From positions 1 through 37,881 of the IMG/VR virus record IMGVR_UViG_3300030060_002616: a stretch of 37,881 bases of DNA; one strand, written 5' to 3'. The position numbers were made by a program, and so were the translations under genes. Source of the stretch: a virus. The stretch's first letter is position 1, and every line of letters begins with the position of its first letter. This document shows, in pieces, positions 14,656-37,881 of this stretch. The notes beneath the pieces were generated by a model that saw only the letters and a program-made list of their open reading frames with translations, was not told the DNA's origin and searched no databases.

Positions 14656-14953
14656 CACCTTCTATAAATTTTGGGTATAGATTGCCAAAGTCTCCATCTT
14701 GGCCTTCTTTGCCTTTTGCATTTATCCATACACCCTCGACTTCAATTTCTTTTTTGTTTTCATAATCCCAAACTTTAGCGGTTTTAGTTTTTGTATCTGC
14801 GAGTTTCATTAAATGTTCGGCAAGCGGTGTTATTGATGCAACAGGCACAAACCAAGACATTGATTTTGGATATTTGTCGGCATCTTCAAAAGTGTTGTCA
14901 CTTGTTGAATATTTGATCGGATGGGGTAAAGCGGGTTTGAATGAATCAGACAT
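14627..14953 (-). CDS. Candidate single-stranded DNA-binding protein
   Basis: A 108-residue protein whose last residues, SSDEIPF, match the acidic SSB tail (DDDIPF in E. coli) that recruits partner proteins. The body is beta-rich with aromatic residues (MSWFVPVASI, AKVWDYENKKEIEVEGVWIN) and is short for an OB fold. It is the last gene of an operon holding a nuclease, RusA and a Rad52-like annealing protein, which fits an SSB role. The call rests on the tail and the context. It overlaps the upstream gene by eight bases. Confidence 0.6.
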   Translation of the reverse strand: MSDSFKPALPHPIKYSTSDNTFEDADKYPKSMSWFVPVASITPLAEHLMKLADTKTKTAKVWDYENKKEIEVEGVWINAKGKEGQDGDFGNLYPKFIEGANSSDEIPF

Positions 14954-15152
14954 GATTAAAATGGTTTGTTAAAAGTTGTTTGAAAAAATCAGTAAGAGAA
15001 ATTTTATGCTTGGCGCAATATTCTCTTATTAGGGCGGCTTGTGAATCATCAGTTCTAAAATAAAATTTGTTTCGGTTATAAAAAGAAATACGCCTTGACC
15101 GCAGTTCTTGAATTATTTGTTTGCCTGCGAAATCGGCTTGCTCTTCTGTCAT
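14946..15152 (-). CDS. Small protein of the recombination operon, function unknown
   Basis: A 68-residue protein (MTEEQADFAGKQIIQELRSR onward), mostly helical, with FYNRNKFYFRTDDSQAALI in the middle. The ATG at 15152 shares its A with the upstream TGA (TGATG), which decides the start. It lies between the annealing protein and the SSB-like protein, so a helper role in recombination is possible, but there is no motif to support one. Confidence 0.65.
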   Translation of the reverse strand: MTEEQADFAGKQIIQELRSRRISFYNRNKFYFRTDDSQAALIREYCAKHKISLTDFFKQLLTNHFNHV

Positions 15153-15871
15153 CAACTTTTGTCTTTTAGTTTTTCCATAGTTAAGCGTAAAAATCTTCCA
15201 TGTTCAGATAATGTAATATTTGCGGGTGTAACTTCTTTAACTTGCAATTTAAAGTGACTTTTAAACTCTTTTAAAATTTGATCTTTAAAAGGTGATTTTC
15301 TTAATTCAGTTACAATTAATTCTTTTGCATCAGAATTAATTTCTTTAGGCAATAAATAATTTTCGTCTGGTTTCTCGTCTGGTTTTTCTGGTGTATGTGA
15401 ATAACCTTCTCTTTCTGGCAGCTTTTTAGATTCTTCTTCTTTGTTTGCTTCTTTTACTTCAAGATTCGCCCATAATTCAAAAGCATCACCAAAGGAAAAA
15501 CAAGCGCAGGCGCAAAGGCATCTACGATGGGCTAATTGTATATCAGTTGTGGAAATCTCTTTATATGGAATACCTTTATTCCAGTTATTTGTTACTGAAT
15601 AAACATATAAAGGTAATTTAACGCCTGTTTCTATGTTTTGAAAATAGCCCATCAAATAACCTGTATTGTCAGGAGCCATCCAAACAAGTTGCCCATTTGG
15701 GTCAGGTTCTAAATTAAAAAACCAATTTGGCGCGTTTTCTCTTATTCGTTGCGCTGTTTTAGCCCATGAACAAAATGGAAGTTTGCCTTTATAATAAAGA
15801 TCATCTTTTGTTATAAGACCGCCCAGATTTGGAATTTGTATTGATTCAGTTGGTTCAGGTTGGTTTGACAT
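15152..15871 (-). CDS. Rad52-like single-strand annealing protein (DUF1071/Sak-type)
   Basis: A 239-residue protein. Residues about 40-140 fit the DUF1071-type annealing proteins of the Rad52 superfamily: APNWFFNLEP, GYLMGYFQNIETGVKLPLYV, and the conserved segment TTDIQLAHRRCLCACACFSFG. In such proteins a DIN-x-A-x-x-RCL-x-KA block packs the core. A Glu/Lys/Pro-rich linker (140-175) and a helical C-terminus follow. It would pair complementary strands during phage replication or repair. Neighbours are RusA upstream and an SSB-like gene downstream. Confidence 0.7.
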   Translation of the reverse strand: MSNQPEPTESIQIPNLGGLITKDDLYYKGKLPFCSWAKTAQRIRENAPNWFFNLEPDPNGQLVWMAPDNTGYLMGYFQNIETGVKLPLYVYSVTNNWNKGIPYKEISTTDIQLAHRRCLCACACFSFGDAFELWANLEVKEANKEEESKKLPEREGYSHTPEKPDEKPDENYLLPKEINSDAKELIVTELRKSPFKDQILKEFKSHFKLQVKEVTPANITLSEHGRFLRLTMEKLKDKS

Positions 15872-17354: not shown

Positions 17355-17635
17355 TATTTAGAACCTTTTGTTTTAAGATAATCTTCATAACACTCTTGTA
17401 AATATTGCCCGTAATAATCTTGAATTGCAAGAAATATATTTTTTGTTAAAGAATTAGTATCTTTAAAATCAAAATTAATTAATTCATCAATATCAAGCAA
17501 ACAACCATATTTTTGGTCATCGCCATCATTTTTGTATGTAAGTTCAAATCTAGGAAGACCATCAGACCATGAAAATGGATTTGCTTCAAGACAAATACTT
17601 ACTTTTTGTTTTTCGTGATAAAGCATATTAGTCAT
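17354..17635 (-). CDS. Protein of the early operon, function unknown
   Basis: A 93-residue acidic protein (MTNMLYHEKQKVSICLEANP onward), with DIDELINFDFKD and IQDYYGQYLQECYEDYLK in the C-terminal half. I do not recognise it. The ATG at 17635 overlaps the upstream stop by eight bases. An in-frame TTG at 17644 is less likely. Confidence 0.68.
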   Translation of the reverse strand: MTNMLYHEKQKVSICLEANPFSWSDGLPRFELTYKNDGDDQKYGCLLDIDELINFDFKDTNSLTKNIFLAIQDYYGQYLQECYEDYLKTKGSK

Positions 17636-18260
17636 TTTTAACAACCTTTAATGAAGGCCAGTTTTGTTCGCTTGCCTTGAATACTTTTGACTGTGGGTGA
17701 TTCATCGGCTGTTCTTTGTTGTATTCGTTATTAGGTTTATATACATCCTTGTAGCCCCTGATAATTGCCATTTCTAGCGCCTTGATTTGCTCCTGATGCG
17801 TAAACCTCCGCAACTTTCTAAATATGCGCTCTGCGACCGCCTGCGTACAAGTAGCTTTTTTCTTATGTCTTATCGGCCACCATTCAACAATTAAATCCGC
17901 ATGCATTTGTAAATCTTGCGGGATATATTCTTTTTTAATGTTAGGACTGGCAAACAAATCTTTTTTTGATTTTTTTATCGTTTTTTTCTTCTCTTTATCC
18001 TTATATATAATAGTAGAGAATTTATCTGCGCTTTGTTCTTTGTTTTTCTTCTCTTCTTGTTCTTTTTTTAAATTGTTTGTCTCAAGTGAACTTTGTTCGC
18101 TTGATAAATTCAGGGTAACATATGGAGTCAACCCCCCTGCGGCCTGAGATAGTATTTCGTTGATAAATGCAGTCATAGATAGATGTTTTGGTTTAATTTC
18201 GTTTAGTTGGTTCATGATAGGTACCATAATTTGTACACGCGATGGACGTTTTGTGGTCAT
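17628..18260 (-). CDS. Ribbon-helix-helix protein with replication-initiator-like C-terminus
   Basis: A 210-residue protein. Residues 4-42 (RPSRVQIMVPIMNQLNEI, then HLSMTAFINEILSQA) fit a ribbon-helix-helix DNA-binding domain. Residues ~55-110 are a Glu/Lys-rich linker. Residues 123-180 (LIVEWWPIRHKKKATCTQAV, then RIFRKLRRF) resemble the compact helical domain at the end of some phage replication initiators. Three TTGTACA sites exactly 33 bp apart straddle its promoter and start, so it is probably self-regulated, or binds an origin there. I chose the ATG at 18260, which abuts the middle site. This is the only replication-initiator candidate in the genome. Confidence 0.65.
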   Translation of the reverse strand: MTTKRPSRVQIMVPIMNQLNEIKPKHLSMTAFINEILSQAAGGLTPYVTLNLSSEQSSLETNNLKKEQEEKKNKEQSADKFSTIIYKDKEKKKTIKKSKKDLFASPNIKKEYIPQDLQMHADLIVEWWPIRHKKKATCTQAVAERIFRKLRRFTHQEQIKALEMAIIRGYKDVYKPNNEYNKEQPMNHPQSKVFKASEQNWPSLKVVKND

Positions 18261-18304
18261 AAATTGTACATAAAGTAAACATATCATGGCAGTAAATTGT
18301 ACAT
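18227..18304. promoter_or_regulatory. Three phased TTGTACA sites (operator or iterons)
   Basis: TTGTACA occurs at 18231, 18264 and 18297, each step exactly 33 bp, about three helical turns. The flanks also agree: roughly GGYCATAAA before each core. One site lies in the spacer between -35 and -10, one at the start codon, and one inside the first codons. Repeated sites on one helix face suit a ribbon-helix-helix repressor or a replication initiator. Confidence 0.75.
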
Positions 18305-18310
18305 TGTCAA
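18282..18310 (-). promoter_or_regulatory. Promoter of the ribbon-helix-helix gene
   Basis: On the minus strand, TTGACA (18305-18310) is followed after 17-18 bases by ATGATA/TGATAT. A TTGTACA site occupies the spacer, so binding there should block RNA polymerase. Unlike the nine strong early promoters, its -10 is not consensus. Confidence 0.6.
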
Positions 18311-18340: not shown

Positions 18341-18475
18341 CTATTCTTTTTTAAAATCGCATTTGTGTTCTTTTAAATCGACATCGACCCAATATGCGCC
18401 GTTATAAACAACCCACATTTGCCTTTCTTTATCAAATTCAATTTGACCCGCTTTTGGTTTTTTTTCTTCCTTCAT
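18341..18475 (-). CDS. Small Trp/Tyr-rich protein, function unknown
   Basis: A 44-residue protein (MKEEKKPKAGQIEFDKERQM onward) with WVVYNGAYWVDVDL. The ATG overlaps the upstream TGA in ATGA, consistent with coupling. It lies between two ribbon-helix-helix genes. No known motif. Confidence 0.6.
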   Translation of the reverse strand: MKEEKKPKAGQIEFDKERQMWVVYNGAYWVDVDLKEHKCDFKKE

Positions 18476-18654
18476 TCAACCTGATAATCTTCTGCTGTTT
18501 CTTTTTCGAACTTATCTCTTAAAAAACAACTTAAGGTTTTGTTTTCTATTGTTGCTCTGATTTTAAGTTCTTTCTTTACTGCGGGTCTTACGGCAACCTG
18601 TATTACTTCTGAATAAAGGTTCTCGCGTTCTGTTCCCTTTTCCCTGTTAGCCAT
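18472..18654 (-). CDS. Ribbon-helix-helix regulator (CopG/Arc type)
   Basis: A 60-residue protein. Residues 17-50 (VIQVAVRPAVKKELKIRA, then NKTLSCFLRDKFEKE) show the strand-helix-helix pattern of CopG/Arc regulators. It has a good ribosome site (AGGAGGT) upstream and is the third gene of the operon from the 19154 promoter. It may control the early genes. Confidence 0.7.
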   Translation of the reverse strand: MANREKGTERENLYSEVIQVAVRPAVKKELKIRATIENKTLSCFLRDKFEKETAEDYQVE

Positions 18655-19125: not shown

Positions 19126-19154
19126 ATTATAATAAAATTAAATTGATTTGTCAA
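19126..19154 (-). promoter_or_regulatory. Consensus early promoter (family of nine)
   Basis: TTGACA (19149-19154), 17 bases, TATAAT (19126-19131), both exact on the minus strand. It drives the 19096 gene and probably the long early operon down to 14627. Confidence 0.85.
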
Positions 19155-19351: not shown

Positions 19352-19377
19352 TGGTTTTATTGGTTTTGTACAATCTT

Positions 19378-22419: not shown

Positions 22420-23589
22420 ATGACTTCAATAAACGATTTACATAACGATCCTAAAAATGCTCGTAAACGTACTGATCGATCTGCAAAGCTTATAAAACAA
22501 AGTTTAGAACAATATGGTGCGGCAAGATCAATAGTAATTGACGAAAACAATCGCATCCTCGCAGGCAATGGAACAATCGCAGGGGCAAAAGCCGCAGGAA
22601 TTAAAAATTTAAAAATAATAGAAGCAAATGGCGATGAAATAATAGCGGTAAAAAGATCAAACCTTACAGAAGATCAAAAAGTGGGACTTGCAATAGCAGA
22701 TAACAGAACTGGTGACTTGTCAGAGTGGGATATAGATATGCTTGAACAACTATCAGATGAGCATGATTTAAACGATTTCTTTAATAAAAAAGAGCTTGAT
22801 GACATATTTTCTAAAAAAGAAGTTTTACCAACAGAAGGTTTAACAGACCCAGACGAAGTTCCAGAAGTTCCAGAAAAACCAATAACAAAAGAAGGTGATT
22901 TATATATTCTTGGTGATCACAGACTTTTATGTGGTGACTCTTTTATTATAAAAAATGTAGATTTTTTATTAAATGGAACAAAACCAGAGTTGCTTTTTAC
23001 TGACCCACCTTATGAATTACAGACAGAAGGCGGTGGAATTTTAAAAAAGAGCAATTCAATGAAACAAATAAAAACCAATAAAGTTGATAAATTTAACCCT
23101 CTTGATTTAATCCTTTTTGCTGAAACTAATATTTTTTTTCATAATAAACCTTTAATAAAACAATATATAGATTTAGCCGAAAAAAATAAAAAAAATTATG
23201 ATTTATGTTTCTACAAGAAGGAAAATATTGCACCTAATTATGGAGGTCATATGATGACTGACGTTGAATATATTGCATTAATAGGTAAACAAAATCCAAA
23301 CAAAGGTTTTCAGAAAGAGGATTATTCAAAAGTTTTTATTGGAAAAAAAGATTTTGATAATAAATTAAGTTATTCAAAACCTGTTGCTATCTGTGAAAAA
23401 TTTATAAAATTATATTCTAATTCAAATATTTTAGATTTATTTTCGGGTTCTGGTTCTTCATTAATTGCAGCCGAAAGATTAAATAAATTGTTTTTTGGAA
23501 TGGAAAAAAATCCTGTTTTCTGTGATGTAATAGTTAAAAGATGGGAGGATTTTACAGGCAACACAGCAAAACGTGTATCATCTAGTTAA
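22420..23589 (+). CDS. ParB-like domain fused to a DNA methyltransferase
   Basis: A 389-residue protein. Residues 1-110 are a ParB/sulfiredoxin-type domain (LHNDPKNARK, IVIDENNRILAGNGTIAGAK). Residues ~160-389 form a methyltransferase with motif IV TDPPYE (about 193-198) before motif I LDLFSGSGSS (about 337-346), the order of beta-class adenine-N6 or cytosine-N4 enzymes. The 200-330 stretch is divergent. This fusion is common beside phage terminase genes; it may protect phage DNA or mark it for packaging, but the target site is not known. It ends in TAATG, joining the small terminase. Confidence 0.88.
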   Translation: MTSINDLHNDPKNARKRTDRSAKLIKQSLEQYGAARSIVIDENNRILAGNGTIAGAKAAGIKNLKIIEANGDEIIAVKRSNLTEDQKVGLAIADNRTGDLSEWDIDMLEQLSDEHDLNDFFNKKELDDIFSKKEVLPTEGLTDPDEVPEVPEKPITKEGDLYILGDHRLLCGDSFIIKNVDFLLNGTKPELLFTDPPYELQTEGGGILKKSNSMKQIKTNKVDKFNPLDLILFAETNIFFHNKPLIKQYIDLAEKNKKNYDLCFYKKENIAPNYGGHMMTDVEYIALIGKQNPNKGFQKEDYSKVFIGKKDFDNKLSYSKPVAICEKFIKLYSNSNILDLFSGSGSSLIAAERLNKLFFGMEKNPVFCDVIVKRWEDFTGNTAKRVSSS

Positions 23590-28850: not shown

Positions 28851-28879
28851 TTGACAAATTGATTTAATTATATTATAAT
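28851..28879 (+). promoter_or_regulatory. Consensus early promoter (family of nine)
   Basis: TTGACA (28851-28856), 17 bases, TATAAT (28874-28879), starting one base after the MuF-kinase stop codon. It opens the block of early-type genes inserted in the head operon. Confidence 0.85.
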
Positions 28880-29449: not shown

Positions 29450-29478
29450 TTGACAAATAAGATTAATCTTATTATAAT
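29450..29478 (+). promoter_or_regulatory. Consensus early promoter with palindromic spacer
   Basis: TTGACA (29450-29455), 17 bases, TATAAT (29473-29478). The spacer is filled by a perfect 18-bp palindrome (AATAAGATT / AATCTTATT) at about 29457-29474. It drives 29505 and 29761. Confidence 0.85.
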
Positions 29479-37616: not shown

Positions 37617-37792
37617 GAGGGGATAACTGGCTAAACTTCGAGTTTTTCCTCGCAACAGAACTCAGTAAAACATTATATGAACTAAGAACTTCTTTATCAG
37701 AAGAAGAGCTTATATATTGGGCTGCATACTATGAAGTTAAATATGAAAACGAAAAAAGAGAATCTAATCGTCAAAAAGCAAATAGAAGGTAA
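37263..37792 (+). CDS. Tail assembly chaperone, GT-like (-1 frameshift product)
   Basis: In-frame A-AAA-AAA followed by G (37604-37610) is a perfect slippery heptamer. Shifting back by one base skips the TAA at 37614-37616, and the reading continues to a TAA at 37790-37792, giving about 176 residues. The extension (GDNWLNFEFFLATELSKTLY then ELIYWAAYYEV) closely resembles the T half of lambda-type GT, where NWL and WAAYY are typical. Both products are needed in a set ratio for tails. Possible GAGG/CCTC pairing lies just downstream and could act as a stimulator. Confidence 0.9.
37604..37610 (+). promoter_or_regulatory. Slippery site for -1 programmed frameshift
   Basis: The in-frame heptamer A AAA AAA fits X XXY YYZ and lies two codons before the G-like stop. 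The -1 frame then stays open for 60 codons, encoding a recognisable T-like domain. Confidence 0.88.
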
Positions 37793-37881
37793 GATATAAG
37801 AAAGTCTTTTTTTATTTGTGGCACAGGCTAATGTAAAACTTACTGTAAATGCAACGCAAGCCACAAGCGCATTAAAAGGCG
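37704..37881. repeat. Terminal direct repeat, right copy
   Basis: The same 178 bases as the window start, apart from G at 37758 (T at 55). It shows that the two ends join. Confidence 0.95.
37818..37881 (+). CDS. Tape measure protein, start (partial, right copy)
   Basis: GTG at 37818 and the next 21 codons duplicate the start of the tape measure gene at 115; the rest lies at the left of the window. It is not a second gene. Confidence 0.9.
   Translation, partial: MAQANVKLTVNATQATSALKG

Follow-up and report, generated by a model that had tools for sequence, protein, structure and literature searches.

Ribbon-helix-helix (RHH) proteins use a strand to read DNA, and in MetJ, an RHH autorepressor, the DNA boxes are adjacent to one another. 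In lambdoid phages, the immunity regions exemplify DNA-binding specificity and operators that are exchanged jointly between mosaic genomes. The plasmid RHH protein PrpA binds iterons (PMC7848731), and the replication origin of phage lambda is located centrally within gene O (PMC7466680). Here, we analyze a phage gene whose product appears to join an RHH domain to an O-like initiator domain, a combination for which a limited search of the literature yielded no description.

Genome and probable host

The window, meaning the whole 37,881-nucleotide stretch of IMG/VR record IMGVR_UViG_3300030060_002616, carries a direct terminal repeat, with 177 of 178 positions identical between 1-178 and 37704-37881; the two ends are not exact copies. 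This repeat suggests that the record probably represents an entire genome of ~37.7 kb. Siphovirus-like particle genes are encoded (tape measure, tail fibre J, portal, and major head protein), and the nearest relatives of the tail and terminase genes belong to Prochlorococcus phages MED4-184, P-HS2, and MED4-117 and to Synechococcus phages, an affinity that points to a marine picocyanobacterium, probably Prochlorococcus, as the host. P-HS2 has been reported as lytic (PMC7852597), and KBS2A is without integration genes (PMC3751600). A minus-strand block has matches to exonuclease, RusA, and, weakly, a Sak-like annealing protein. No polymerase, helicase, or integrase was recognized among the scanned open reading frames (ORFs), which were a part of all ORFs, and no relative was found among cellular genomes (genome_contigs).

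Elsewhere in the genome, positions 22420-23589 (plus strand) encode a DNA methyltransferase whose N-terminal part is ParB-like. Near-identical promoter-leader cassettes of the form TTGACA-N17-TATAATaagATTGTAnnnAAACCAAaCAAACCAATG precede many genes, both here and in relatives; in the window they lie at 19131, 19383, 19801, 20673, and 22367 on the minus strand and at 28874, 29473, 30189, and 30424 on the plus strand. Such cassettes may aid recombination among early genes or let these genes be read as a set.

An O-like protein with a putative RHH domain

The gene under study (17628-18260, minus strand) encodes 210 amino acids, divided into a putative RHH domain (residues 1-43; 18132-18260), a disordered linker, and an O-like C-terminal domain (residues 101-196; 17673-17960). 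Its start is the ATG at 18260, as in the type 1 and type 2 relatives, which have the start ATGACCACAAA in common; a longer ORF starting at 18287 was rejected, as relatives start at the position equivalent to 18260. A match to phrog_678, "replication initiation O-like," covers the C-terminal part (residues 62-201; E=1.7e-8), and the same match is found in 7/7 RHH-type relatives tested. Cyanophage KBS-S-2A protein CPKG_00028 (phrog_678 E=1.2e-17) has the same C terminus behind a winged helix. This winged-helix N terminus, usual in the O-like family, is absent here, and an RHH-like N terminus seems to occupy its place.

The N terminus seems to be an RHH domain, on the modest support of weak sequence matches and monomer predictions. 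AlphaFold predicts an extended stretch followed by helices at residues 13-22 and 29-42 (pLDDT of 86 for the domain modeled alone), whereas residues 44-97 are predicted to be disordered and residues 115-168 to form three high-confidence helices. A profile search of solved structures returned AvtR weakly for the RHH region (E=0.0055). Compared as a profile with small proteins encoded by these phages, among them one that clears the Pfam RHH_3 cut-off, the region gave E=1e-4 with a probability of 56%. The window's own N-domain gives no match to Pfam RHH families, and neither a PDB sequence search with the full protein nor Foldseek searches of PDB with both models returned anything significant. In a search of viral structures, the best match carries no name, and a weaker one is a DNA replication protein of a Lactobacillus phage. 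The pairing of an RHH domain with an initiator-like C terminus, proposed earlier from the letters alone, is thus upheld by the phrog_678 match, the predicted helix pattern, and the weak RHH profile matches. We regard the protein as a likely O-like initiator in which the winged helix has been replaced by swappable RHH-plus-operator cassettes.

Beyond the RHH domain, codons 51-57 (AATTTATCAAGCGAACAAAGT) are identical in 20/20 type 1 and type 2 sequences, and codons 51-58 (18087-18110) may be a cassette junction zone or a DNA-level signal. Separately, the 12-mer TTTGTTCGCTTG has two copies in the genome, both inside this gene (17663-17674 and 18092-18103), 429 bp apart and each coding for Ser-Glu-Gln.

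Three sites over the promoter and start codon

As the earlier note had described, TTGTACA occurs on the plus strand at 18231, 18264, and 18297, with a spacing of exactly 33 bp. On the minus strand, along the gene, repeated symmetric TGTACA boxes are present on the gene's own promoter at 18303, 18270, and 18237, each opening a shared 11-bp word, TGTACAAWTTA, so that the longer common flanks noticed before are real. The sites read, in gene order, TGTACAATTTA, TGTACAATTTA, and TGTACAAATTA. The exact 11-mer has only these three copies on both strands of the 37.9-kb record, and two equally spaced 7-mer triples (steps up to 60) were observed, whereas first-order Markov sequences gave 0.27 on average.

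The overlaps with promoter spacer, start codon, and early codons also hold. Site 1 (18293-18303) begins one base past the TTGACA assigned as the -35 element (18305-18310) and lies in the promoter spacer. Site 2 (18260-18270) covers the leader and reaches the start codon, where its final base is the first letter of the ATG (18258-18260). Site 3 (18227-18237) covers codons 8-11 and codes for Arg-Val-Gln-Ile. The TTGACA is found 48-52 bp ahead of the ATG in 10/11 N-domain types; no good -10 element was seen in this promoter, in contrast to the near-identical TTGACA-N17-TATAAT cassettes of this phage's early promoters. The view that all three sites share about one helix face is roughly right, with 33 bp amounting to 3.14 turns at 10.5 bp per turn, but the sites drift by ~50 degrees with each step, so "one face" is an approximation only.

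Of the three sites, site 3 carries the most doubt. All 18 second-type relatives have its TGTACA although sites 1 and 2 are missing from them, so this copy may owe its presence to coding. The triple in an initiator gene is known from two related genomes only, the window and L002. An IMG/VR search for three TGTACA boxes at 33 bp returned 24 stretches, most of which resemble coding tandem repeats, and yielded no new one with an initiator.

A regulon governed by such sites was considered and rejected, as the genome holds no other exact 11-mer. TTGTACA follows the -10 of an early promoter at 19366 and TTGTACG that of another at 29473; these were dismissed as type-specific signals, as type 2 phages have similar words there.

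Exchange of operator and RHH domain

IMG/VR provided 34 relatives for the whole protein and 178 for the C-terminal alignment; 80 of the latter were kept. The C terminus is retained among these viral relatives while N-domain types number at least 11. Only one other genome of the window's type was found, L002, and it keeps all three sites. In the second type (TTNKPIRVQIKPQI), the promoter spacer holds a pair of TGCCAT boxes spaced 10 bp apart; type 8 has the upstream pattern TTAGTGT-N9-ACACTAA, and type 3 has ACAACT-N5-AGTTGT in 2/3 genomes.

Upstream and N-domain types agree closely. Across 58 genes clustered at 85% identity, AMI was 0.92 for upstream and N-domain types, compared with 0.56 for upstream and C-domain and 0.58 for N- and C-domain types, and the partial correlation of distances was 0.67 for upstream and N-domain given the C-domain and 0.22 for upstream and C-domain given the N-domain (0/2000 permutations reached either value), measures that still contain shared ancestry and simple linkage. 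The operator and N-domain are adjacent, and some co-inheritance is expected through linkage alone. We therefore give more weight to pairwise profiles.

In the pair L078 and L083, identity is 86-100% at -420 to -121 and 70-80% at -120 to -61, falls to 26-56% at -60 to +150, and then returns to 86-100%, with a final partial bin at 75%. The window and L003 are 90-96% identical at -270 to -91 and 46-76% at -90 to +120, beyond which identity is mostly 90-100% over the next 270 bp. L003 and L019 present the reverse case, with C-domains that differ by 26%, N-domains by 4%, and upstream regions by 3%. From these islands of divergence and the reverse case, the exchanged unit is the operator plus the RHH domain, swapped as one cassette of about 200 bp. 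N-domain groups with the common strand KVC(V/I)WL have one upstream type, as expected if the strand reads DNA.

Model of autorepression and alternative explanations

We propose that the initiator's own RHH domain represses its own gene, a reading to which we assign a probability of roughly 75%. The three sites would be operators recognized by the RHH domain that this very gene encodes, with RHH dimers binding the TGTACA boxes. Bound dimers would block RNA polymerase between the -35 element and the start codon, limiting synthesis of the replication initiator as negative autoregulation, and the O-like C-terminal domain would, by analogy with lambda O, help recruit the replicative helicase. With operator and RHH domain passing between phages as a unit, each RHH type would retain its own operator. 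The earlier suggestion of an autorepression switch thus finds strong comparative support in the co-variation of operator and N-domain and in the clean cassette swaps. Lost sites in relatives had been named as evidence that would count against it; losses are seen, but only alongside a changed RHH domain, which is the pattern predicted by an autorepressor.

Could the sites be bound by a different RHH protein, for instance the small neighbor encoded at 18472-18654? Small neighboring genes look RHH-like here and in relatives, yet L078 and L083 share the same small RHH neighbor and differ in operator and initiator RHH domain, and between the window and L003 the flank across the neighbor's region is 90-96% identical while the operator has changed. 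The operator therefore follows the initiator's own domain, and we consider binding by a neighbor very unlikely. Nor do we favor an array without regulatory role, arising as a short duplication whose third copy is fixed by coding and which is linked to the N-domain. The finding of site 3 in relatives that are without its partners, the restriction of the array to two genomes, and the abutment of operator and N-domain fit this account, but the 11-mer occurs nowhere else in the genome, more than one pair has swapped islands that stop just beyond the operator and RHH domain, and other types carry patterns of their own at the same place (the type 8 and type 3 patterns and the TGCCAT direct repeat), all of which make it improbable. 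As to the small genes themselves, the proteins encoded at 18472-18654 and 14946-15155 (minus strand) look RHH-like by eye, with weak NikA-like and DUF6290 matches only, and L083, L078, L075, L109, and L101 have a divergent small RHH gene upstream, facing away across an AT-rich region, one of whose products passes Pfam RHH_3.

Whether the array or the entire gene doubles as a replication origin is a question apart from autorepression, and we think it possible but somewhat doubtful. The 33-bp repeats could act as iterons, or the linker could hold a lambda-like opening site. In favor are the O-like C terminus and the three regularly spaced direct repeats. Other types, moreover, have a purine-rich 32-mer and a TA-rich tract ahead of the initiator gene, and the strongest match of the present genome to a motif from that region falls in the initiator linker. 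Opposed to this, the array is missing from other types, Lys and Glu codons abound in the linker, the tested genomes are related, and type 3 relatives give the linker motif only P=0.02-0.07. Skew at 18.2 kb, one of the checks offered with the earlier proposal of an origin at the array, has no break; GC skew and third-position skew follow the gene strand and are alike on both sides of 18.26 kb, and skew was set aside as origin evidence. DnaA boxes are not in excess (25 matches versus 32 expected), there is no AT-rich tract at 18.2 kb, where AT content is ordinary, and apart from the phased repeats origin-like features are absent from 18.23-18.31 kb.

Candidate origin elements in the linker and upstream regions

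A lambda-like origin in the linker near 18.0 kb appears likelier than one at the 33-bp array. The candidate element TATAAGGATAAAGAGAAGAAA (17985-18005, minus strand) is the best match in the genome to the upstream motif of other types, with a search matrix built solely from the upstream copies in those types. Its score is 23.3, whereas 40 second-order Markov genomes reached no more than 17.6, and synonymous-codon randomization gives P=0.002; the corresponding elements of L002, L003, and L005 have P=0.0015-0.006, values that, given related genomes and a Lys/Glu-rich linker, provide a lead and not a demonstration. The linker is A/T- and purine-rich and has the motif in common with relatives; lambda-like iterons were not found there. 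In L012, from 7974 onwards, the initiator is frameshifted by a linker deletion between similar GAGAAGAAAAA words, with loss of the candidate element, which is either real or an assembly collapse.

In types 4-11, the upstream purine-rich 32-mer has at most one mismatch in 15/15 genomes, the TA-rich stretch reaches 77-89% A+T across the 200 bp examined, and the element AAGGATA..GARAAGAA is present upstream in most. The order in L094, L104, L078, L075, L109, L101, L085, and others is the 32-mer AAGAAAAAGAAAAGAACCAAAAGAAAAAGAAT, the TA-rich tract, and then AAGGATA..GARAAGAA, an arrangement that lies ~80-300 bp upstream of the initiator. This region looks like an origin in those relatives.

Discussion

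A broader reading is that widespread, apparently lytic marine phages carry one-protein "repressor-initiators," in which the RHH domain serves both to repress the gene encoding it and to target the origin, with cassettes setting compatibility groups. We hold this reading as a whole to be unlikely. If true, a resident phage would keep a superinfecting phage of its own type from replicating, like plasmid incompatibility. The favored model of autorepression with exchanged cassettes would itself show a route by which an initiator can change its DNA-binding specificity, as a ~200-bp cassette moves and the rest of the protein stays. The at least 11 natural pairs of RHH type and operator offer a test set for how RHH proteins read DNA, and the same pairs can be used to ask whether phages have incompatibility types.

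Joint exchange of specificity and operator is the same as in lambdoid immunity regions, but the specificity domain of this locus is part of a probable initiator, and the phage has no recognized integrase and no relative found in genome_contigs. The lambda O-type initiators (phrog_678; KBS-S-2A CPKG_00028) have a homologous C-terminal domain and a linker within the gene that may carry origin DNA, as may be the case here; their N terminus is a winged helix, whereas the N terminus here is RHH-like, with putative sites on the gene's promoter and start. The RHH autorepressors (Arc, MetJ, and CopG, and antitoxins such as RelB) have a similarly small RHH domain and palindromic boxes over their own promoters, to which the TGTACA boxes would correspond, while the fusion to an initiator-like domain and the placing of boxes 33 bp apart rather than adjacent are different here. 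Finally, the plasmid RHH copy-number regulators (CopG of pMV158 and PrpA) are similar in that an RHH protein controls replication, but in plasmids the RHH protein and the initiator are separate, and in this phage both would be one protein.
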